64,000 nucleotides of DNA, taken from positions 3,087,968-3,151,967 of the forward strand of contig CP036424.1 of assembly GCA_007745835.1 (NCBI GenBank), read 5' to 3'. Made by a program: the position numbers and the translations under genes. The notes below the pieces were generated by a model. That model saw nothing but the letters and a program-made list of their open reading frames with translations, was not told the DNA's origin and did not search any database. Each line of letters begins with the position of its first letter. Position 1 is the stretch's first letter. Below are positions 2 through 35,233 of this stretch, piece after piece. This DNA comes from Planctomycetes bacterium MalM25 (GTDB lineage Bacteria > Planctomycetota > Planctomycetia > Pirellulales > Lacipirellulaceae).

Positions 2-361
2 ATCGTGGGGGGCGCAGCGGATAAGACGCCCGAAGAGGTCGCCCGTCTGTTCGGTTACCTCGCGGACCTGCTCCGCAGTCACCAGCCGGAGGCGCCGGTC
101 ATCTGCTGCGACGTCCGCCCCGCCCCCAGCCGGTTCAAGGCGTGGGACAAGATCCGGCTCGGCAACGCCGCGTTGAAGGCGGCTTGCGAGCAGCGCGAGG
201 GCGTGCACTACCTCGACACATCCGACGCCTTCCTCGTCGAGGGGGGCGACGCCGCGAGGGCCGACCTGTACGGCCCCGACCGCCTGCACCTGAACGAAGC
301 GGGCTACGCGGTCTGGTCCGCGCAGATCAAGAGCGAGATCGACCGCGTGCTCGGCGAGTGA
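2..361 (+). CDS. SGNH/GDSL-type hydrolase, 3' part only
   Basis: The reading frame is already open at the left edge, so only the last ~119 codons are present. The C-terminal stretch DRLHLNEAGYAVW carries the Asp-x-x-His pair of SGNH hydrolases (block V: catalytic Asp and His). The preceding text (PVICCDVRPAPSRF, then a strand before YLDTSDAF) fits the alternating strand and helix layout of the fold. The nucleophile Ser and the Gly/Asn blocks would lie upstream, outside the window. These enzymes hydrolyse esters of lipids, acetylated sugars or similar substrates; the substrate cannot be named from this fragment. The GTG at position 5 is internal, not a start. Confidence 0.75.
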   Translation: MVGGAADKTPEEVARLFGYLADLLRSHQPEAPVICCDVRPAPSRFKAWDKIRLGNAALKAACEQREGVHYLDTSDAFLVEGGDAARADLYGPDRLHLNEAGYAVWSAQIKSEIDRVLGE

Positions 362-440
362 GGGGGTAGCGCGCTGAACGAAGAGACTCGCCCCGAGCGG
401 ATTGCGATCCGAGTGTTGCGTGGGGACTGCCTGATCAAAT

Positions 441-470
441 TTGACGGAATGAATAACCGTCGCATACGAT
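441..470 (+). promoter_or_regulatory. Candidate sigma70-type promoter with near-zero leader
   Basis: TTGACG (441-446) is followed after 18 bp by TACGAT (465-470). The predicted transcription start, 6-7 bp downstream, falls on or next to the A of the ATG at 477. No Shine-Dalgarno sequence is visible before that ATG, so a leaderless transcript is possible. The match is 5/6 and 4/6 to consensus. Sigma70-like boxes occur by chance, hence modest confidence. Confidence 0.4.
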
Positions 471-476
471 CCGTGT

Positions 477-1907
477 ATGGCGAGCTTCACTCACCGATCG
501 ACCCTCGGGTTGGTTCAGGGCTTGGTCGTCGCGACACTCTTGGCAGGGCCAGCCTGCCAAGCGAGCGATCCTTTGCCCGCGGGGGCCGTGCTGATCGACG
601 ACAACCTCGTCGGCGATCTTGAAGCGTGGGGCATGCTCGCCCTCAACCCGGCCCGCGATCAGATCGCCTACCAGAGCCGTGGAGCCTTGTGGGCCTCGGA
701 TCTTTCGGGGGCGCCACCCGAGCGGGTGGTCGATCTGCCCGACACGCAGTCCGCTTACCTCCTGGGGACAGACTACGCCTCGTCGCGATCGCGATTCAAC
801 AAGATCGGCGTCACTGATCTGCCCAAGGATCACTACCCGCGTGGTGAGGAACGCCCCACGATACGGATCAACGACCTCCAGTGGTCGGCGTCTCAAGGTG
901 GTTGGTGCTACCTCGAAATCTCAAGCACAGGCGAACGCTCCTACGACGCGAAGCTCTCGCACAAGATCCGTTCGGTAGCGAACAACAACACCGTTGAAAC
1001 GCTCACCACCGCCTGCCGAGAACGATTCGATCAACCCCAAAGGTTCTGGAGCTTCGCGCTGCCCGACAACCACAACCTCATCATCCTCTACGCCGGTTCC
1101 TACGCCCATGTCACAAGCCGGCTTCCTCTCTTCTGGAACCGAGTCACTCAACGGCCTTTGGTGACCAGCTACGACCGAATCTTCCCAAGCCCCTCGTGCC
1201 GCCGATTCCTCGGCGTCGAGATCGACACGCACCAGCTGGTGCTGCTCAACGCGGACCTCCGGATCGAGAGACGCTACGACGTTTTCCTCGGCAAGGAACA
1301 CCACCTCACCTCCTGCGCCTGGTCGCCGAACGAGCGACACCTCCTCTACAAGCTCAAGCCCGCTTACCCGCCCCGGACCGCCGTGCCGTATCGAATCGAC
1401 CTCGAGACGGGCGAGGGCCTCCGGCTGAGTGAATCGCACGAGGGCGATCGGTTCGTCCTGACGGGCGACCGGGACGAGGCGCTGAGGATCGGCAAGTTCC
1501 CGATCCGCCACGGCGGGAAGTCCGACGGCGGGGACGGGAGCTACGTATCGCTCGTCGAGGCCGGTGGCCGGCACGAGACGTTCCTAGCGAACTTCAATCG
1601 CCGAACCGTGCGCGGCCGGAGGAGCGGCGAAGACAAACCATATCCGATGCCGGTCGTCAGCGCGAGCACGCGACAGGCAGTCATCGCGCTGCCACGCGGA
1701 CCGGGAACGGTCGGCTACCGCTACTGGCTGGTGGACGCCCAAGGGGAGCGGCGGCCGCTCGGAATGGACAACCGCGACTGCTACTACTCGCCGTGGCGTG
1801 TGTTGGCGTTCGTCGACGGCGGCAACCGCCTGCTCGCCAACGATTACACGCGACTCTTCACCGTCCCGATCGAATCCATCTCGAAGGATGACGTCGATGG
1901 TCCGTAA
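477..1907 (+). CDS. Secreted WD40/PD40-like propeller protein, unknown function (copy 1)
   Basis: A 476-aa protein. Residues 1-30 form a signal peptide (basic start, then LGLVQGLVVATLLAGPACQA). The mature part contains repeating blades of the PD40/TolB-like kind, for example NPARDQIAYQS near the start and CAWSPNERHLLYKL in the middle. No catalytic motif is recognised. It is a diverged paralogue of the next gene: RFLGVEIDTHQLVLLNADL here aligns with RWIGLEKDTRQLVILDADF there. The two overlap and are probably co-transcribed. The ATG at 477 is preceded by a candidate promoter almost abutting it. A role as an extracytoplasmic scaffold or binding protein is only a guess. Confidence 0.7.
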   Translation: MASFTHRSTLGLVQGLVVATLLAGPACQASDPLPAGAVLIDDNLVGDLEAWGMLALNPARDQIAYQSRGALWASDLSGAPPERVVDLPDTQSAYLLGTDYASSRSRFNKIGVTDLPKDHYPRGEERPTIRINDLQWSASQGGWCYLEISSTGERSYDAKLSHKIRSVANNNTVETLTTACRERFDQPQRFWSFALPDNHNLIILYAGSYAHVTSRLPLFWNRVTQRPLVTSYDRIFPSPSCRRFLGVEIDTHQLVLLNADLRIERRYDVFLGKEHHLTSCAWSPNERHLLYKLKPAYPPRTAVPYRIDLETGEGLRLSESHEGDRFVLTGDRDEALRIGKFPIRHGGKSDGGDGSYVSLVEAGGRHETFLANFNRRTVRGRRSGEDKPYPMPVVSASTRQAVIALPRGPGTVGYRYWLVDAQGERRPLGMDNRDCYYSPWRVLAFVDGGNRLLANDYTRLFTVPIESISKDDVDGP

Positions 1908-5892: not shown

Positions 5893-8433
5893 ATGCCCCT
5901 CCCGCGCGGATCCGCCGGCCGTCGCCTCGCCGAAGAGCGGCTCGCGGAACGCCGACGATCGCCACGACGGCCAGCTGAGACGCCGCTCGTCTGGATCGCC
6001 CTCGCGACCGGCGCCGGAGCGCTGACGGCCGTCGCCCTGCCCCACCTCGGCTTCGGCCCACCGGTGCTGGGAGCCACCGGCGCCATGCTGCTGATGGCTT
6101 GGGCGCACGCCTGGTGGCGTCACGCGGACACCCGGGCTTGCGGCCTCCTGCTGGCGAGCGTCGCCTCGCTGGCAGGCGCCTGGGCCGGCGCCGCCTGGCG
6201 ATGGTTCCCTGTGGACGACGTGGGCCGCTACGCTCCGCGCGACGCCGAGCCGGTCTGCTTCGAAGCCCGTGTCCATCGCGTCCCGACGGTTTACCCCGCT
6301 GAGGAACGTTCCCCCTTCCAAGCGATCCCGCCCCGCGATCGCACCGTGCTGGATGTCGAGGTCGTCGCCTTACGAGACGGCGTCCGATGGCGGCCAACAA
6401 GCGGACGGTGCGAGGTCACCATCGCGGGACGGCTCGAAGCGCTGACGCCGGGCGAGCGGTTGCGGGTCTTCGGGCAACTGCGTCGTCCCTCTCCCGCGAT
6501 GAACCCGGGGCAGCGCGACGCGGCCGCGATGGACCGCGCCGAGCGCAAGCTCGCCCGTGTCTGGACCGAATCGCCGGCGTGCGTCGCCTCCCTCGGTAAC
6601 ACCAGCGAATCACCCGCCGCCTGGTTGGCGAGCACGCGAGTGTGGTCACTCGATCGGATCGACGCCCACCTCCCCCCTGTGGTGAGCCCGCTCGCGCGGG
6701 CGATGCTGCTCGGTGAGGGATCTCGGCTCCCCGAGCCGGTCGTCAAGGCGTTCCGCAAGACGGGCACGCTCCACGTGCTGGTGGTCTCCGGACTGCACGT
6801 CGGGCTCGTGGCGGCGGTGCTACCCGGTCTGGCGGCGCTCGGCCTGCTGCCGCGACGGCTCGCTTGGTGCGGGGCGTTGGTGCTGGTGATCGCCTACGTG
6901 GCGCTCGTCGGGGCGCGTCCCTCGGCGGTGCGAGCGGGCGTGGTCGCCGCAGCCGCCTGCCTCGCCGCCCTCTCGGGATGGCGGGCGCTGAGCCTCAATT
7001 CACTCGCCGGCGCAGGCGTGGCGGTCTTCGCCACGCAGCCCGGCGCCTGGGCGGCGGCCGGGACGCAACTCAGCTTCCTCGCCGCGGCGACGCTGCTGGG
7101 GGTCTCCTCCTGGATCGCCCACCGCAACGCGAAGGTGACGCCCCCGCTGGAGCGCCTCGTCGAATCGACGCGGACGCCGATCGAGCGGCTCGTACGCCGC
7201 GGCCTCGCGTGGGCGGGCTGGGTCCTCGCCGCGACCCTCGCCGTGCAGTTGGTGACCGGGCCACTCGTGGCCTCGGAGTTCCACCGCGTCTCGCCTGCGG
7301 CGGCGCCGCTCGCGTTGGTGGTCTCACCGCTGGTCGCCCTCTCGGTCGGCTCCGGCCTGCTCCTACTGGCTGCGGAATCGGTCGGGCTCTCGTGGATCGC
7401 CGAGGCGGCTGGCTGGCTGTGCGGTGTTGCGGTGCAGTCGATGGGCGATTCGGTTGTCGCAACTTCCCGGTTTGCCGGCGCGGGATTCTGGACCGCCGGC
7501 CCCACGGGCTGGTGGTCGGCCGCTTGGATCGCCAGTTGCGGGATCGGCGCCCTCCTGGCGAACTACGGCGTGAACGCTAGGCCCTTCTTGCTGCGCAGCG
7601 GCGTCGCGTTGGCGGCCGCGGCGTTCGCCCCGACGCTCTGGTCCACCTGGGCCGACGCCGACAAGCTGCGGTGCCACTTCCTCGCGGTCGGTCACGGCTC
7701 GGCGACACTGATCGAAACTCCCGACGGTGAGTGCGTGCTCATCGACGCCGGCGCTCTCGGCTCCCCCGACCGAGTCGCCGACACCGTGGCCCGAACCCTG
7801 TGGGCGCACGGGGTGACGCGGATCGACGCGATCCTGCTCACGCACGCCGACATCGATCATTACAACGCCATCCCTGGGTTGATCGAGCGTTTCCCCGTCG
7901 AGGCGATCTGGACAACCCACCGGATGTTCCCACGCGTCATCGACGACACCGACCATTCCGGCCCCGCCGAGTTGGCCCGGCTGCTTAAGCAAGCGAACCT
8001 GCCGACCCGGCTGCTACGGCGTGGCGACCGGTTGCGTGTGGGCGCGGCCCGACTGGAGGTGCTCCACCCTGACGAGTTGGGCGTTCTCGGGTCGGACAAC
8101 GCGAACAGCCTCGTCCTGGGCGTCGAGTACGCGGGCCGCCGCCTCCTGCTTCCAGGCGACCTCGAGTCACCTGGGATCGAGGCCCTGCTGGCACAAGAGC
8201 CCTACGACTGCGATCTGATACTGGCGCCCCACCACGGCAGCCACCGCAGCAACCCGCCCGGCTTCGCCGCCTGGTGCCGCCCGGAGCGGGTCGTCATCAG
8301 CAGCGGCCAACCACGCGGCGAGGCCCGCTCCGCCTACGCCCGAGCGGGGGCTGAGGTGATTTCGACCCACGAGACAGGAGAAGTGAGTGTCTCGCTCAGC
8401 GAGCGAGGGCTCGAAGTGAACAGTTTCCGCTAA
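5893..8433 (+). CDS. comEC: ComEC/Rec2 family DNA internalisation channel protein
   Basis: An 846-aa polytopic membrane protein with the three-part ComEC layout: an N-terminal membrane/OB-like region (from ~residue 30, LVWIALATGAGAL), a central competence domain with many transmembrane helices (FRKTGTLHVLVVSGLHVGL is the family hallmark), and a C-terminal metallo-beta-lactamase-like domain. That last domain shows HADIDH at residues 651-656 and HHGSHRSN from ~780, so the nuclease-like metal site looks intact. In the family the protein moves single-stranded DNA across the inner membrane during transformation. No other competence gene lies next to it; a prepilin peptidase is 13 kb downstream. 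Confidence 0.93.
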   Translation: MPLPRGSAGRRLAEERLAERRRSPRRPAETPLVWIALATGAGALTAVALPHLGFGPPVLGATGAMLLMAWAHAWWRHADTRACGLLLASVASLAGAWAGAAWRWFPVDDVGRYAPRDAEPVCFEARVHRVPTVYPAEERSPFQAIPPRDRTVLDVEVVALRDGVRWRPTSGRCEVTIAGRLEALTPGERLRVFGQLRRPSPAMNPGQRDAAAMDRAERKLARVWTESPACVASLGNTSESPAAWLASTRVWSLDRIDAHLPPVVSPLARAMLLGEGSRLPEPVVKAFRKTGTLHVLVVSGLHVGLVAAVLPGLAALGLLPRRLAWCGALVLVIAYVALVGARPSAVRAGVVAAAACLAALSGWRALSLNSLAGAGVAVFATQPGAWAAAGTQLSFLAAATLLGVSSWIAHRNAKVTPPLERLVESTRTPIERLVRRGLAWAGWVLAATLAVQLVTGPLVASEFHRVSPAAAPLALVVSPLVALSVGSGLLLLAAESVGLSWIAEAAGWLCGVAVQSMGDSVVATSRFAGAGFWTAGPTGWWSAAWIASCGIGALLANYGVNARPFLLRSGVALAAAAFAPTLWSTWADADKLRCHFLAVGHGSATLIETPDGECVLIDAGALGSPDRVADTVARTLWAHGVTRIDAILLTHADIDHYNAIPGLIERFPVEAIWTTHRMFPRVIDDTDHSGPAELARLLKQANLPTRLLRRGDRLRVGAARLEVLHPDELGVLGSDNANSLVLGVEYAGRRLLLPGDLESPGIEALLAQEPYDCDLILAPHHGSHRSNPPGFAAWCRPERVVISSGQPRGEARSAYARAGAEVISTHETGEVSVSLSERGLEVNSFR

Positions 8434-28604: not shown

Positions 28605-30806
28605 TCAGCGAGCGATCGCGAGCTTGTTGGCTTGCAGCAAGCGAACGTAGTCGATCGTGATGGACATCGCTTCGCGGTTGTAGTGGTCATCCAGATCGAA
28701 GACCGGCTTGTCCGAGTCGCTCATCTGCTCGCCCATCTCCTTCTTCTCCTTGTCCTCGTCGAGCTCCTCACGCTCGGCGAGGAACTCGGACAGATTGAGC
28801 GTCAGATCGGTGTTGTCCTTCTGGGTCTCGTACTTGTCGATCTTCTTGAGGTCATCGGCGAAGTCCTCCGAACGACTCACTCGCTCGTCGGAGAGGCTTT
28901 GCAGCTGGCTGGCGATCTGGCCGCCCGCCATGCCGTGGAAGTCGTGCCGCAGAGCGCGGACCCGGTCGAAGGCGAGGGCGTAGTCCATCTCGGCCTCGGT
29001 GATCCCCTCGAGGTGGTCGGTGAGGGCCGGGATCCGGATGTCGGCCAGCACGCCCCGGTTCTGGGTGCTATCGCCGCCGGGTCGGTAGAACTGCTGGATC
29101 GTCATCTTCAGCGCGCCCAGGTTGCCCGCCCGACCGAAGAGCTTGTTGCCCAGGTCGAAGAGCTGCTGCACGGTCCCCTTGCCGTGGGTCGACTCGTCGC
29201 CGACGACGATGCCGCGGCCGTAGTCCTGCACGGCGCCGGCGAAGATCTCACTCGCCGAGGCGCTGAAGCGGTTGGTGAGCACTACGAGCGGACCGTCCCA
29301 CATCATGCCGGGGCTGTCGTCGGCGTAGGGGATGGTGCGACCGTCGGTCCCTTTCACCTGGACGACCGGGCCCTGGTCGATGAACAGGCCGGTCAGGTTG
29401 ACCGCCTCGGTGAGCGAACCGCCCCCGTTGAAGCGGAGATCGACCACGACGGCGTCGATCGGGCGGCCGGCGGCGGCCTCCTTGTCGAAGCCATCGAGCA
29501 GCCGGCGGACGTCACGGGTGACGCTCTTGTAGTTGGGCAGCCCGGCGCGGGCCCCCTCCATGTCCATGTAGAAGCTCGGAAGATCGATCACGCCGAGCCG
29601 GTACGGCTGGCCGTTCGCCTTGGGGGGGAGACCGAGGTCGGCTCCCTCAATGATGACGCTGCGGGCCTCTTGGTTCTTCAGCTCGATCCGGTCGCGAGTA
29701 ATGATGTACTCGACCAGGTCATTCGGGTTATCGACCGGCTTCACTTGCAAACGGACGATCGTGCCGCGTTTGCCGCGGATCAGCTTCACAACGTCGTTCA
29801 GCTTCATATCGACGATGTCTTCCATCGGGCCTTCGGTGTTCTGACCGACGCCAACGATCTTGTCGCCCTTGGTGAGCGATCCCTCCTGGTCGGCGGCTCC
29901 GCCGGCGATGACCTCGGCGACCTCGGTGTAGCCGTCGTCGCTGCGGAGCGAGGCCCCGATGCCGTCCAGCTCGAGCCGCATCTGGATGTTGAAGTTCTCC
30001 AGCGTTGAGGGGCTCATGTAGCTGGAGTGCGGGTCGAAACCGCTGGTGAGCGCCGTCACGTACAGCTCGAGCAGCTCGTCGCTCGAAGTCTGGTTCCAAC
30101 GCTTGCGGAGGCTGCTGTAACGCTTGCGGAGACGCACGCGGGCGTCGGAGAGGTCGGCGTCCTCGCCGAGTTGGATCCCGGGGCCGATCTTCAGCCCGGG
30201 GAGCGGCTCGCTCGCCGGCGCGCCCTCGGCCAACTCGGGGTCGGTCTCGGTGATCTTGAGCATCAGGTCGAACTTGACCCGCTTCCGCCAACGGTCGGAG
30301 GCCTCTTCCGGGGTGCGCGGGTAGGTCGCCGAGTCGGCGTCGGTGACCATCCGCTCGTCCACGGTGAAGTCATGCTCGGCATCGACCCACTTGAGAGCGG
30401 TTTCGACGCGTTCCTCTAGCCGCGCCAAGAAACGGGCGAAGACCGTGTGGGCGAAGTCGACGTTGCCCGAGCGGAAGTAATCGTCAAGCCGGTCACGGTT
30501 GCGGGCGAACTCGTCGATGTCCGACTGGTAGAAGTAGAGCTTTAGCGGGTCGAGCGATTCGAGGAACGACTCGAGACACCGCTGGGAGATCGTGTCGTCG
30601 ATCGCCTGCCGCGAGATGTGCTTCTGCTCGAGCAGGAACCGGACCGACCGAGCGATGGTCTGCGTCTGGCGGTCGGGCGGCGCGGGGGCGGCGAGGACTG
30701 GCGCCACCGTGACTACCGCCGCCAGGGCGAGCAGTCCGGCCTTGGCGGCCCTCCTCAGCGAAAATCCAGCGCGGACGGGGCCCAGACGACGGACGGAGTC
30801 GATCAT
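28605..30806 (-). CDS. prc: C-terminal processing (tail-specific) protease, S41 family
   Basis: A 733-aa periplasmic protease from ATG 30806, chosen because it begins a clear signal peptide (basic start, GLLALAAVVTVAPVLA); a GTG at 30878 adds 24 residues. Layout follows Prc/Tsp: an N-terminal helical domain, PDZ (~240-330, DGIGASLRSDDGYTEV), the S41 catalytic core and a C-terminal DUF3340-like domain. The Ser is in SASASE (second Ser, residue ~517) and the Lys in HGKGTVQ (residue ~543), both in the spacing of E. coli Tsp. It degrades or trims proteins by their C-termini, so PEP-CTERM or lipoprotein precursors are possible substrates (inference). Confidence 0.9.
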   Translation of the reverse strand: MIDSVRRLGPVRAGFSLRRAAKAGLLALAAVVTVAPVLAAPAPPDRQTQTIARSVRFLLEQKHISRQAIDDTISQRCLESFLESLDPLKLYFYQSDIDEFARNRDRLDDYFRSGNVDFAHTVFARFLARLEERVETALKWVDAEHDFTVDERMVTDADSATYPRTPEEASDRWRKRVKFDLMLKITETDPELAEGAPASEPLPGLKIGPGIQLGEDADLSDARVRLRKRYSSLRKRWNQTSSDELLELYVTALTSGFDPHSSYMSPSTLENFNIQMRLELDGIGASLRSDDGYTEVAEVIAGGAADQEGSLTKGDKIVGVGQNTEGPMEDIVDMKLNDVVKLIRGKRGTIVRLQVKPVDNPNDLVEYIITRDRIELKNQEARSVIIEGADLGLPPKANGQPYRLGVIDLPSFYMDMEGARAGLPNYKSVTRDVRRLLDGFDKEAAAGRPIDAVVVDLRFNGGGSLTEAVNLTGLFIDQGPVVQVKGTDGRTIPYADDSPGMMWDGPLVVLTNRFSASASEIFAGAVQDYGRGIVVGDESTHGKGTVQQLFDLGNKLFGRAGNLGALKMTIQQFYRPGGDSTQNRGVLADIRIPALTDHLEGITEAEMDYALAFDRVRALRHDFHGMAGGQIASQLQSLSDERVSRSEDFADDLKKIDKYETQKDNTDLTLNLSEFLAEREELDEDKEKKEMGEQMSDSDKPVFDLDDHYNREAMSITIDYVRLLQANKLAIAR

Positions 30807-31092
30807 GCCGTGTAGCTCGACGGGGATTGCGAGGAGTCGAAAGGCCTGGCGATAAGGTCTCTCTTCGGCGCTCGACACGGGACGCCATAAGACCAGTCTG
30901 ACCGGTCCCGCAGCCTCCCGGCGTCGCGCCCCGAGGGACCAAACGCACTAAACCAAATTCACCAAACAACTTGCAGAATATCGGCGTCCTGCAAACGGGG
31001 CAAGATCGCCAAGATGTAGCGATTAGCGGACCGGATCGGTCGCGCCACGCGACTCCTACGCTCAGCGGCGGGCCTTGGTTCAGGGCGACCGC

Positions 31093-32205
31093 TCAGAGGT
31101 CCTGCTCGGGCGCCGCTTTCTCCGCCGCTTCGCCTCGGCGGAACAGCCGGAGGAGCCGTCGGGGTCGGACCTCGACTGAAATCGAGGGGGGCCCGTTCTG
31201 CGGTTTCGGAGACCCGATGTCCTCGCTTGGCGTCCGACCGGACGCCACGAGGCGAGTCACCTGCCAGCGGGTCTTGGCGCCGGCGGCGTCGAACTCGGTG
31301 ACCGCCTCCTGGTGGAGACCGCCCGGGGCGTCGAAGCCGTGGATCGCGAACGCCTCGGTCCGCTCGCCGGTGGGGTGCTCGGTCGTCGATTCAACCTGCC
31401 AGGTCGCCGTGAGTTCGTCGCCGTAAATCGTGGGCGTTCCGAAGCGTGTCACCCCTTCGATCGCGAGCGGCCCCGCATCACTTCCGAGGACAGTTTGACC
31501 CTGGCGGCGAAGCACCGCGGGCTCGTTCTGATCGGAAACATAAAGCGTCAGTTTCTCGGCCCGTAACTCCGAGCCCGACTCGATCAACCAGGTGCGACAC
31601 GGCACGGCCAAGTCACCGAGGCTGATCGAGGTCGGCTCGCCCGCCATGATGGCGACAACCGGCTCCTCAACCGAACGGTCGTTAACCAACCAGAGCTCCT
31701 GCGTCTCGATCGGTCCGGGCGTGCGACGGCCGGCGAGTTCGACAACGGGTTCGATCGACAGCGTGTACGTCCGATCGCCAACCGCGACGAGGCGTTCGGT
31801 CCGCTCGCTCACGCTCCGTCCCGCGAAGGCGCCCGACTCGTCGAAGACCTCCGAGATGGTCTGCAGCCGTCGCCAAGCTCCTGGCTCGTAACGAACCCAC
31901 GGGTGACTCGCACGGAGCGTCGCGCGCAACTGCTCACCCTTATCAGCGTCGGGCGTCTCGGCGCCGGGCGAGGGCGTTTCGGCTTCGGCGAGCGCTGGTT
32001 CGGACTCCGGCTCGACCGACGAGCCCTCGACGGGCGCTCGTCTCTTCAAGATCGACTTCTCGCTCAACGCCTCGGCTCCGCTCTCCGAGGGCGGAAGCGG
32101 CGGCGCGACGAAAGGCTGGGCTTCGCTCAACTCTAGCGCAAGGGCGCCCACGACGCACTGGGTGCAGAGAGTGAGCGAGAGAATCCAGGCGAAGCGGGAA
32201 GGCAT
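31093..32205 (-). CDS. Secreted hypothetical protein
   Basis: A 370-aa protein from ATG 32205; the 100 residues coded further upstream do not look authentic. Residues 1-23 form a signal peptide (MPSRFAWILSLTLCTQCVVG). A Glu/Ala/Pro-rich linker spans ~27-85, then a beta-rich domain to ~340. The tail is Arg-rich (RPRRLLRLFRRGE). No family was recognised; the phrase RYEPGAWRRLQTISEVFDESG may be a family marker. A -10-like TATACT lies ~38 nt upstream on the same strand. It follows the SelA-like gene in the same direction. Confidence 0.6.
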   Translation of the reverse strand: MPSRFAWILSLTLCTQCVVGALALELSEAQPFVAPPLPPSESGAEALSEKSILKRRAPVEGSSVEPESEPALAEAETPSPGAETPDADKGEQLRATLRASHPWVRYEPGAWRRLQTISEVFDESGAFAGRSVSERTERLVAVGDRTYTLSIEPVVELAGRRTPGPIETQELWLVNDRSVEEPVVAIMAGEPTSISLGDLAVPCRTWLIESGSELRAEKLTLYVSDQNEPAVLRRQGQTVLGSDAGPLAIEGVTRFGTPTIYGDELTATWQVESTTEHPTGERTEAFAIHGFDAPGGLHQEAVTEFDAAGAKTRWQVTRLVASGRTPSEDIGSPKPQNGPPSISVEVRPRRLLRLFRRGEAAEKAAPEQDL

Positions 32206-32269: not shown

Positions 32270-33622
32270 TCAGCCACTCTGCCCCTCCGACGGCTCTCCC
32301 TGGAGCGGCTCGGCCCCGAAAGCAGCGGCGATCGACCGGTCCTGGCTGGCGAAGACCGACCGTAAATCGAGGCTAAGACCCCTTTCGGTCTGCCCCAAGA
32401 CGAGGCCCGGGCCCCGCTTGGAGACGGCGGAGAGCAACTCGCTGGGGCTCCCCTCCGGCGTGATCTCCACACACCAACCGGGGCGAAGCCCGCCGGCAAT
32501 CTCAACGGCCTCGGCGGAGGCGACCCCCTCGGCGACGGCGATCAGCGGGGCGAGGCGTTCAGCGCGCGTGCGTAGGTTTTCCTGCGGCGCATCGAGCAAC
32601 TGGTGCAAGGGGTGCGTGAATCGGAGCGAATCGGGCTGATCGAAGAGTGCCAGAGTCGCCGCCAGCGCCGCGTCGAGCATGGGATCGATCAGATCGGCAC
32701 GCGCCGCGCCGCTCGCATTGATGCGTTCAAGAACCGAACGCTTGCCGAGCAGCAGGCCGCCCACCGGCCCACCAAGCAGGCCGCCGGTCGCCACGATCGC
32801 CGCGTCCACACCGGCGTCGAGTGTCTCCTCGATCGAGGGCGTCGTGTCTCCGTAGGCGGGCGTGTCGTTGCGTGGTCGAGCGGGGCCGCAATCGACGAGG
32901 CTCGCGGCGCCGTGGCGACTGGCGAGCGACGCCAGCTCTTCCGCCAACGGAGTCGCCCCGCCGCCGGGGCGGTGCAGCACAAGGCGACGTTCCGAACCGC
33001 TCGCCTTGGCCTCTTCGAGAGCCGTTTCGTAATCAGCCAGGGTCGCCGCGTCGGTGGCCCCCACCTCGCGGAGTGTGACGCCGGCACGGCGGGCTACTTC
33101 GTCCAAGCGGACGCCCTCGACGAGCTCGCGCATCTCGCTGCGTCCGACGACCGCTACGCCTCCGCCGGCCAGCGACTCCATCGCGACACTCAACGCGGCG
33201 ACAGGCGAAGAGCACAAACTCGCCGCCTCGCACGGCAGCAATCGGGTCGCAACCGAGGCGGCCGCTCCATGCTCGCGTCGGAATCCCTCGGCAACCGCCA
33301 ACGCCGCTTCGCGCGCCGCAGCGGGCAACGGCGGAGCGGCCCAACCGGTTAGCAAGTCGCCCGTCGCGTTGATCGAGGGCGGAGCGACAGGCGTCGATGG
33401 ATCGTTGAGCCGGCGGACGAGCTTCTCGAATAGCTCACCGGGGGCGATCGATTGCAACTCTTCGGCTCGCCGCGACACCTCGGCGCCCAGGCCGCTCAAC
33501 GCTGCGCGGACCTGTGCGGCGGCGTTCGAGCGGTTGACGCGATCGATCGTCGTCTTGATCCGCGGGTTCTCGAGCAGCTCATCGAGCGACGGGAGCTGCG
33601 ACAGGAAGTCGGGGCCGGGCAT
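32270..33622 (-). CDS. SelA-like PLP-fold protein lacking the catalytic lysine
   Basis: A 450-aa protein with the overall sequence of SelA, the selenocysteine synthase family (PLP fold type I). The N-terminus LPSLDELLENPRIKTTIDRV and the core INATGDLL match SelA. In SelA the PLP-binding Lys precedes LLGGP (GDKLLGGP); here the text is ATGGLLGGPVGG, with Gly281 at the Lys place. The later HPLHQLLDAPQENLRTRAERL also aligns. No alternative Lys was seen near the site. It may be a PLP-independent or non-catalytic paralogue. I saw no selB, selD or tRNA-Sec in the window, so a link to selenium is unsupported. Confidence 0.75.
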   Translation of the reverse strand: MPGPDFLSQLPSLDELLENPRIKTTIDRVNRSNAAAQVRAALSGLGAEVSRRAEELQSIAPGELFEKLVRRLNDPSTPVAPPSINATGDLLTGWAAPPLPAAAREAALAVAEGFRREHGAAASVATRLLPCEAASLCSSPVAALSVAMESLAGGGVAVVGRSEMRELVEGVRLDEVARRAGVTLREVGATDAATLADYETALEEAKASGSERRLVLHRPGGGATPLAEELASLASRHGAASLVDCGPARPRNDTPAYGDTTPSIEETLDAGVDAAIVATGGLLGGPVGGLLLGKRSVLERINASGAARADLIDPMLDAALAATLALFDQPDSLRFTHPLHQLLDAPQENLRTRAERLAPLIAVAEGVASAEAVEIAGGLRPGWCVEITPEGSPSELLSAVSKRGPGLVLGQTERGLSLDLRSVFASQDRSIAAAFGAEPLQGEPSEGQSG

Positions 33623-33690: not shown

Positions 33691-34209
33691 TCAGCGGCGG
33701 GTGCCAACGCGTTCTTGGGCCAGGAAACCTTGCACCGTCTGCGAACCCTCGGGCTCCTTGGCGGGCGTCATCAGCCGCGACCAGAAGCCGGGGCTGTCGT
33801 TCTTCGCCGTGCGGGCCGTGTCATCCCCGCCGAAGGGGAGGCTGCTCATCGCCGAGCCCCAGGCGTTGCGGACCTTGTCCGAGGCGTCCTTAGACCCAGT
33901 GGCGACCTTATCGAGGGCGCGCGAGATCGGGTTGCCGCCCGGTTGCCCCGGCGTGGCCGCCTTGTCGCCCCCACCGAAGCCCGGCTTCCAGGAGAGCTTG
34001 GGCATCTCGACCTTCGGCCAGCCGATCTTGAACAGGGGCGAATCGACCATGGCGGATTCACCATCGGCGGCGGCAGTCGCTGCCGATGAGTCGGTTCCCT
34101 TGCTCTCGCCGCCCCCAGGCCACCAGCTCGGGGCTTCGGCCGAGGCGGGTCCGGCGATCGAGGCGATCAGGCAGAGGGCGAACAAGCGGATTGTGGCTTT
34201 CACGGTCAT
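33691..34209 (-). CDS. Small secreted hypothetical protein
   Basis: A 172-aa protein with a signal peptide (ATIRLFALCLIASIAGPASA). The mature part is low in complexity: Gly/Ser/Pro-rich with Trp-containing short phrases (WWPGGG, IGWPKVEMPKLSWKPGF), consistent with an extended cell-surface or wall-associated protein. No domain was recognised. The start at 34209 faces proC divergently; the 190-bp spacer shows no clear promoter. Confidence 0.55.
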   Translation of the reverse strand: MTVKATIRLFALCLIASIAGPASAEAPSWWPGGGESKGTDSSAATAAADGESAMVDSPLFKIGWPKVEMPKLSWKPGFGGGDKAATPGQPGGNPISRALDKVATGSKDASDKVRNAWGSAMSSLPFGGDDTARTAKNDSPGFWSRLMTPAKEPEGSQTVQGFLAQERVGTRR

Positions 34210-34399: not shown

Positions 34400-35233
34400 G
34401 TGACCCAAACCCCGCAAATTGACGGCGTGATCGCCTTCCTCGGCGCCGGCCGCATGGCTCAGGCGCTGGCCGCCGGTTTTGTGGAGGCCGGCCTCACCCC
34501 GCCCGACCAGATCGTCGCCTACGACCCGTCCGCCCCGGCGGGCGAGGCGTTCCAGGCGGCCGTTGGCGACGGCAGCCGCCTGGCCGCGACGCCGGCAGAA
34601 GCCGCGCAGGACGCCAAGTACGTCTTTCTGGCGGTCAAACCGGCCTACGCCGCTGAGGCAATTGCTTCGATCCGTGACGGCTGGAGCGACAAGCAGGCTC
34701 TGGTCTCGGTCGCGGCCGGCGTGACGATCGAGACGCTCGAATCGGGCCTGCCGAAGGGCGCCGCCGTGGTCCGCGTGATGCCCAACACCCCTTGCCTCGT
34801 AGGCAAGGGGGCGAGCGGCTACGCCCTCGGCGAGCACGCTTCGGCCGATCAGGGCGAGCAGGTCGGCCGGCTGCTCTCCGCGGTCGGCTTGGCGAGCGAA
34901 GTCCCCGAAAAGCTGCTCGACGCGGTGACCGGACTCTCGGGCTCCGGGCCGGCGTTCGTCTACACTATGATCGAGGCCCTCGCCGACGGCGGCGTGCGGG
35001 CGGGCCTGCCCCGCGACCTGGCTGCCCAGCTCGCGGCGCGCACCGTCGCGGGCGCCGCCGAGATGGTGCTCGCCACCGGTCAGCACCCGGCCGCACTCCG
35101 CGACGCGGTCGCCAGCCCGGGCGGCACGACCATCGCCGGCCTCGCCGAGATCGAGCGGCACGGCGTGCGGACCGCACTGATCGAAGCGGTCACCGCCGCC
35201 GCGAACCGTTCGGCCGAGCTCGGCTCGAAGTAA
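34400..35233 (+). CDS. proC: Pyrroline-5-carboxylate reductase
   Basis: A 277-aa enzyme from GTG 34400 that reduces pyrroline-5-carboxylate to proline with NAD(P)H, the last proline-biosynthesis step. The N-terminal Rossmann domain has IAFLGAGRMAQALAAGF; FLAVKPAYA follows. The C-terminal dimerisation domain carries VTGLSGSGPAFVYTMIEALADGGVRAG and the signature near AVASPGGTTIAGL. Length is typical (~270). Two small unknown genes follow in the same direction (30 and 41 nt spacing). Confidence 0.95.
   Translation: MTQTPQIDGVIAFLGAGRMAQALAAGFVEAGLTPPDQIVAYDPSAPAGEAFQAAVGDGSRLAATPAEAAQDAKYVFLAVKPAYAAEAIASIRDGWSDKQALVSVAAGVTIETLESGLPKGAAVVRVMPNTPCLVGKGASGYALGEHASADQGEQVGRLLSAVGLASEVPEKLLDAVTGLSGSGPAFVYTMIEALADGGVRAGLPRDLAAQLAARTVAGAAEMVLATGQHPAALRDAVASPGGTTIAGLAEIERHGVRTALIEAVTAAANRSAELGSK

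Follow-up and report, generated by a model that had tools for sequence, protein, structure and literature searches.

We report that a lysine-less homologue of selenocysteine synthase (SelA), encoded in the genome of Planctomycetes bacterium MalM25 (family Lacipirellulaceae, order Pirellulales), is likely a pseudoenzyme derived from SelA, retained for a binding function that involves no catalysis and is carried by its N-terminal domain, in a role that is probably both undescribed so far and different from selenocysteine (Sec) synthesis. The gene lies in the 64-kb stretch of DNA that was analysed as a whole (64,000 nucleotides, at 3.088–3.152 Mb of the genome; hereafter the window), which contains the following features:

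32270..33622, minus strand: coding sequence of the lysine-less SelA homologue, 450 aa (open reading frame, profile matches, AlphaFold model)
33473..33622, minus strand: N-terminal helical domain, residues 1–50 (Se-cys_synth_N, PF12390), the most constrained part in the clade
33359..33373, minus strand: INATG motif, residues 84–88, still present, unlike the HTNLGRA that comes next in true SelA (alignment)
32780..32782, minus strand: Gly281 codon, aligned with Lys285 of Aquifex SelA, which binds PLP
32765..32776, minus strand: LGGP loop, residues 283–286 (LLGGP from 282), kept despite the missing lysine; G285 and P286 invariant (alignment)
32549..32581, minus strand: C-terminal helix ENLRTRAERLA, residues 348–358; N349, R353 and R356 shared by 100% of the clade
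31093..32205, minus strand: secreted protein of 370 aa, next gene in the same direction (signal peptide by eye)
28605..30878, minus strand: tail-specific (S41/PDZ) protease, a conserved neighbour in about 30 family loci
33691..34209, minus strand: secreted protein of 172 aa, upstream and in the same direction, a kept neighbour in part of the family
34400..35233, plus strand: proC (pyrroline-5-carboxylate reductase), divergent neighbour, which also adjoins selB-selA in Sec-using relatives

The protein is a member of the SelA superfamily by both sequence and fold. It scored 104.1 bits against the Pfam SelA family (PF03841, cut-off 22.8, residues 122–411) and 31.3 bits against the SelA N-terminal domain (PF12390, cut-off 22, residues 7–42), both above the curated cut-offs, and reached 129.4 bits against the SelA equivalog TIGR00474, below its cut-off of 267.9. 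Among solved structures, SelA of Aquifex aeolicus and of E. coli are nearest in sequence, and an AlphaFold model (mean pLDDT 89.9) adopts the SelA fold, with an N-domain that is predicted less surely (pLDDT 63–81). SelA structures were the top PDB matches of this model, led by Aquifex SelA (E 2e-27, Z 36–38), and the best SelA chains (Z 37–38) superposed on it at 2.3–3.4 Å over 351–365 residues. Pfam matches, full-length fold and alignment thus agree with the initial annotation, which had proposed a relationship to SelA over most of the length, including the LLGGP segment; the 450-codon frame that it described is real and intact, and runs from 33622 to 32270 on the minus strand, which had not been given.

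In the alignment, Gly281 falls on Lys285 of Aquifex SelA, as had been proposed for the lysine that binds PLP. This lysine is present in all 31 canonical SelA sequences and in none of the 58 members of the lysine-less clade, made up of 35 rows from the family Lacipirellulaceae and 23 from other families, so that its absence, first noted in one protein, extends to the whole clade. The family members carry Gly (33), Ala (1) or Cys (1) at the site, and those of other families carry His, Phe, Glu, Ala, Gly, Gln, Tyr, Arg and others, never Lys, with His found in four related sequences of another Pirellulales family (f15). A search for a substitute lysine in the clade alignment found none among the columns at least 70% conserved. 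A frame error or a misread lysine is ruled out by the number of sequences without it and by the lack of any other conserved lysine.

The losses extend to the functional residues of Aquifex SelA named in PMC4607533 (the selenophosphate arginines 86, 312 and 315, and the PLP contacts). Arg86, Arg119, Arg312, Arg315, Ser217, Ser282 and Asp284 (Aquifex numbers) are retained in nearly all of the 31 canonical sequences, whereas among the 35 family rows Arg86 is kept in 3, Arg119 in 0, Arg312 in 5, Arg315 in 6 and the PLP contact Ser282 in 3; Ser217, another PLP contact, and Asp284 are mostly lost too in lysine-less proteins. The window protein has Ala, Arg, Leu and Glu at positions 86, 312, 315 and 119, respectively, and so does not hold the set of selenophosphate arginines. 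It retains Arg174 and Asp199, through which SelA dimers are joined. G88, G285, P286, L320, P338, R353 and D428 are invariant across the clade; given in Aquifex numbering, the invariant scaffold residues are G77, G289 and P290. The N-terminal phrase that had been described as degraded is only partly so: INATG is kept, with an invariant G88, and the HTNLGRA after it is gone.

Two other sequences deserve mention here. A second SelA in one genome (L110, G017:C106, about 153–1697, minus strand) scores in the manner of canonical SelA (435 bits) and reads SADQMIGACQGG; with Gln at the site of the PLP lysine, it may represent a separate loss of this residue. L134 (G093, family f15, 6185–7660) is an extremely divergent lysine-less SelA relative with a branch length of 3.7, whose site reads TPGDGLLGGP and whose neighbours are not recognisable.

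The window genome itself has the machinery for selenocysteine, elsewhere. A canonical selA (GDKLLGGP), selB, selD and tRNA-Sec all stand at 2.699–2.706 Mb, and the canonical selA (2.700 Mb) is about 0.42 Mb from the lysine-less gene; within the 64-kb window, neither tRNA-Sec nor any other Rfam match was found, in keeping with the earlier remark that no selB, selD or tRNA-Sec was seen nearby. The separate canonical selA for which a search had been suggested is thus present, beside selB, selD and tRNA-Sec. Outside the window, selD (G000:C1:2704384-2705301) lies inside an open frame of 737 aa, likewise in several relatives, and is therefore probably fused to another domain, perhaps NADH-dehydrogenase-like.

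Across Lacipirellulaceae, 38 of 44 genomes hold the lysine-less orthologue (in one case as a fragment at a contig end), among them 28 of the 29 near-complete ones; Botrimarina colliarenosi is the closest relative with a name. The co-occurrence with selB, selD and tRNA-Sec that holds in the window genome does not extend to most carriers, as 22 of the 28 near-complete ones lack selB, selD, canonical selA and a strong tRNA-Sec, and the remaining six have selB above the cut-off together with selD, a strong tRNA-Sec and canonical selA (weak tRNA-Sec matches of 50–55 bits in some genomes were left out of these counts). Lysine-less relatives are also found in at least two further Pirellulales families (f15 and f17), where SelA relatives with low scores occur often; a sample of 294 genomes from the phylum showed such relatives to be nearly confined to Pirellulales. 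Of 20 low-scoring relatives examined, 19 joined the lysine-less group and one (L165) kept the lysine. No tRNA-Sec match was obtained in the f15 carriers tested, and most f17 carriers tested also lack it; those with a strong tRNA-Sec (G105, G180, G234) also hold canonical SelA or a fragment of one.

Gene order and phylogeny place the origin of the gene within the order. The Sec-using Pirellulales loci L119 and L123 have proC, selB, selA with its lysine and then a gene for a secreted protein, and the same secreted gene comes after selA in L114, L130 and L135. In the window and in most family members, the same slot reads proC, a small secreted gene, the lysine-less gene, a secreted gene and the protease, with selB gone. 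In the tree, the lysine-less clade nests inside Pirellulales SelA (support 99), the canonical SelA of the genome sits on another branch, and joining the lysine-less and canonical SelA proteins of the family is rejected by an AU test (p-AU 0.009). From synteny and tree position, the lysine-less gene is therefore the positional heir of the order's ancestral selA, that is, its in-place descendant and no stray duplicate. The tree and the same AU test also rule out that the gene arose by recent duplication of the canonical selA found in the family. A single loss of the lysine, and with it a single origin of the clade, is weakly supported (SH-aLRT 58–93). The divergent SelA relative L165 (G257, f15), which keeps its lysine in the sequence ASADKLIGGP, branches near the base of the lysine-less clade and is a possible intermediate.

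Genes of the type found at 31093..32205 are frequently located downstream of both true SelA and the lysine-less form, and follow a selA-type gene in five Pirellulales families. A Pfam domain search of the window's secreted neighbour gave no credible match; together with its relatives in L114, L119, L149 and L154, it forms a set of planctomycete secreted proteins of about 280–370 aa that share an H.W.RF..GAW motif and belong to no Pfam family.

Selection on the lysine-less gene is purifying, with pairwise dN/dS values of 0.07–0.33 (true SelA pairs, 0.155), and the distribution of constraint along the protein is inverted relative to true SelA. There, conservation is highest in the catalytic core (mean identity 0.59) and the N-domain is among the least conserved (0.37), whereas in the lysine-less family proteins the core falls to 0.32 against 0.44 for the N-domain. 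Over independent sister pairs, conservation is higher in the N-domain than in the core for 17 of 17 lysine-less pairs and lower for 7 of 8 SelA pairs (p = 1.8e-6). As a control, synonymous change is about equal in N-domain and core (pS 0.50 versus 0.54), while pN is 0.053 versus 0.155, and the inverted constraint is therefore a matter of protein-level selection; the same comparison rules out that the N-domain is conserved because of constraint on the DNA. In both groups the N-domain carries a net charge close to neutral, and charge therefore provides no argument for RNA binding. Most members of one genus (g5) have a deletion of about 110 core residues in the PLP domain, with the N-domain and the C-terminal helix retained, and the model of this short form is fair (pLDDT 81.7).

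The absence of the lysine throughout the clade, frames that stay intact over deep divergence and purifying selection bear out a retained role, the option that the initial annotation had preferred, and leave next to no credence for its other option, that of a gene on its way to decay. As a functionless relic of selA, the gene would be in line with a core domain that changes fast compared to canonical SelA, but such a reading is already refuted by frames intact in dozens of genomes, by the dN/dS range and the invariant residues given above, and by constraint on the N-domain that exceeds that of true SelA. The coexistence of both proteins in the window genome and several relatives, along with the retained dimer-joining Arg174 and Asp199, could speak for a regulatory or structural subunit of canonical SelA acting in mixed decamers, as LCB1 is to LCB2 in serine palmitoyltransferase. 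We regard this role as very unlikely, since the distribution largely refutes it: canonical SelA is missing from most carriers, with 22 of 28 near-complete family carriers lacking canonical SelA, SelB and SelD, and the f15 carriers tested lacking tRNA-Sec.

An enzyme with another chemistry, whose old site would hold PLP or a different phosphate by non-covalent contacts in the manner of His-bearing sugar dehydrases, is unlikely but carries some weight, since the protein retains both the fold and the LGGP loop and four f15 sequences have His in place of the lysine; against it stand the Gly found in the window protein and in nearly all family members, the loss of most of Ser217, Ser282, Asp284 and the arginines, and the genus that dispensed with about 110 residues of its PLP domain. 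We consider it rather improbable that the function is tied to the secreted neighbour or to the tail-specific protease, for example as a cytosolic chaperone or a translation-coupled regulator. The pairing with the secreted gene across five Pirellulales families and the protease gene that follows in about 30 family loci favour such a link, but in three genera (g3, g7 and g14) no secreted neighbour can be recognised beside the SelA-like gene, g14 also lacks the protease, and the same secreted gene follows ordinary SelA too.

The reading that we favour, a SelA-derived pseudoenzyme acting through its N-terminal domain, starts from a history that synteny and the tree support. In ancestral Pirellulales, a block of selB, selA and the secreted-protein gene was located beside proC. 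On the way to the present family, selB disappeared from the site, and selA lost the PLP lysine and most of the residues that bind selenophosphate and PLP without moving; the resulting ex-SelA has been kept intact and under selection whether or not the genome uses selenocysteine. The present-day protein would be cytosolic, with no covalent PLP binding and no selenium chemistry. It would retain the SelA scaffold and function by binding, with the helical N-terminal domain as its main working surface and the old catalytic domain as a framework that may now be partly dispensable, as the deletion in g5 suggests.

The N-terminal domain of Aquifex SelA binds tRNA-Sec, according to the account in PMC4607533, which cites Itoh et al. 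2013. By its sequence, the corresponding domain of the window protein is a putative tRNA-binding domain, present and strongly constrained, and RNA binding by it may be expected from this ancestral role. That constraint on the N-domain grew stronger where tRNA-Sec is missing suggests that the ligand has changed; most plausibly it would now be either RNA, for instance some tRNA distinct from tRNA-Sec, or a partner protein. Full-length members might still have some catalytic activity, because sugar dehydrases of the same fold act with His and without the lysine, and the fast evolution of the core could simply come from its being freed. More tentatively, SelA pseudoenzymes throughout Pirellulales might share this condition, with a freed tRNA-binding domain as the part now selected, binding another tRNA (a serine tRNA, for example), another RNA or a partner protein in bacteria most of which lack selenocysteine; this wider proposal is possible, but somewhat less likely than not.

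Among known systems, the protein is most like SelA itself (Aquifex aeolicus, 3W1H; E. coli, 8UZW), with which it shares the full-length fold, the N-terminal domain, the INATG and LGGP motifs and the gene slot. Unlike SelA as defined by PF03841 and PF12390 with TIGR00474, it is without the PLP lysine, most PLP and selenophosphate residues and an equivalog-level score, and its kind persists in genomes without tRNA-Sec, selB and selD. A practical caution follows: lysine-less genes pass the Pfam SelA cut-off, yet they are no evidence of selenocysteine use in planctomycetes. LCB1 (SPTLC1) is a lysine-less fold-type I subunit of serine palmitoyltransferase that needs a catalytic partner; both proteins are fold-type I and without the PLP lysine, but the window-type protein mostly lives without catalytic SelA, and there is thus no constant catalytic paralogue. 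In the sugar dehydrases ColD and E1, His replaces the PLP lysine and the PLP pocket still works. The natural loss of the Schiff-base lysine is shared with them, whereas the window protein has Gly at the site and a dismantled pocket.

No report of a lysine-less SelA clade was found in open-licence papers. Orphan SelA in species without selenocysteine has been a puzzle since at least 2006, when Zhang et al. recorded homologues of SelA in species lacking the Sec trait (PMC1794560). The closest precedent is Helicobacter pylori SelA (HP1513), in which selA outlived Sec decoding with the N-domain lost and Lys285 and the arginines kept (PMC4607533). This and other SelA proteins of non-Sec species resemble the lysine-less form in that selA was kept after the loss of Sec, in what is probably a new role. 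The H. pylori case suggested that orphan SelA proteins persist as PLP enzymes; the lysine-less clade shows the opposite path, in which the enzyme centre is dismantled and constraint becomes strongest on the N-terminal domain. The clade offers a natural test of the SelA scaffold and its tRNA-binding domain without catalysis, and the window protein, with its N-domain retained and its lysine lost, is the mirror image of H. pylori SelA.
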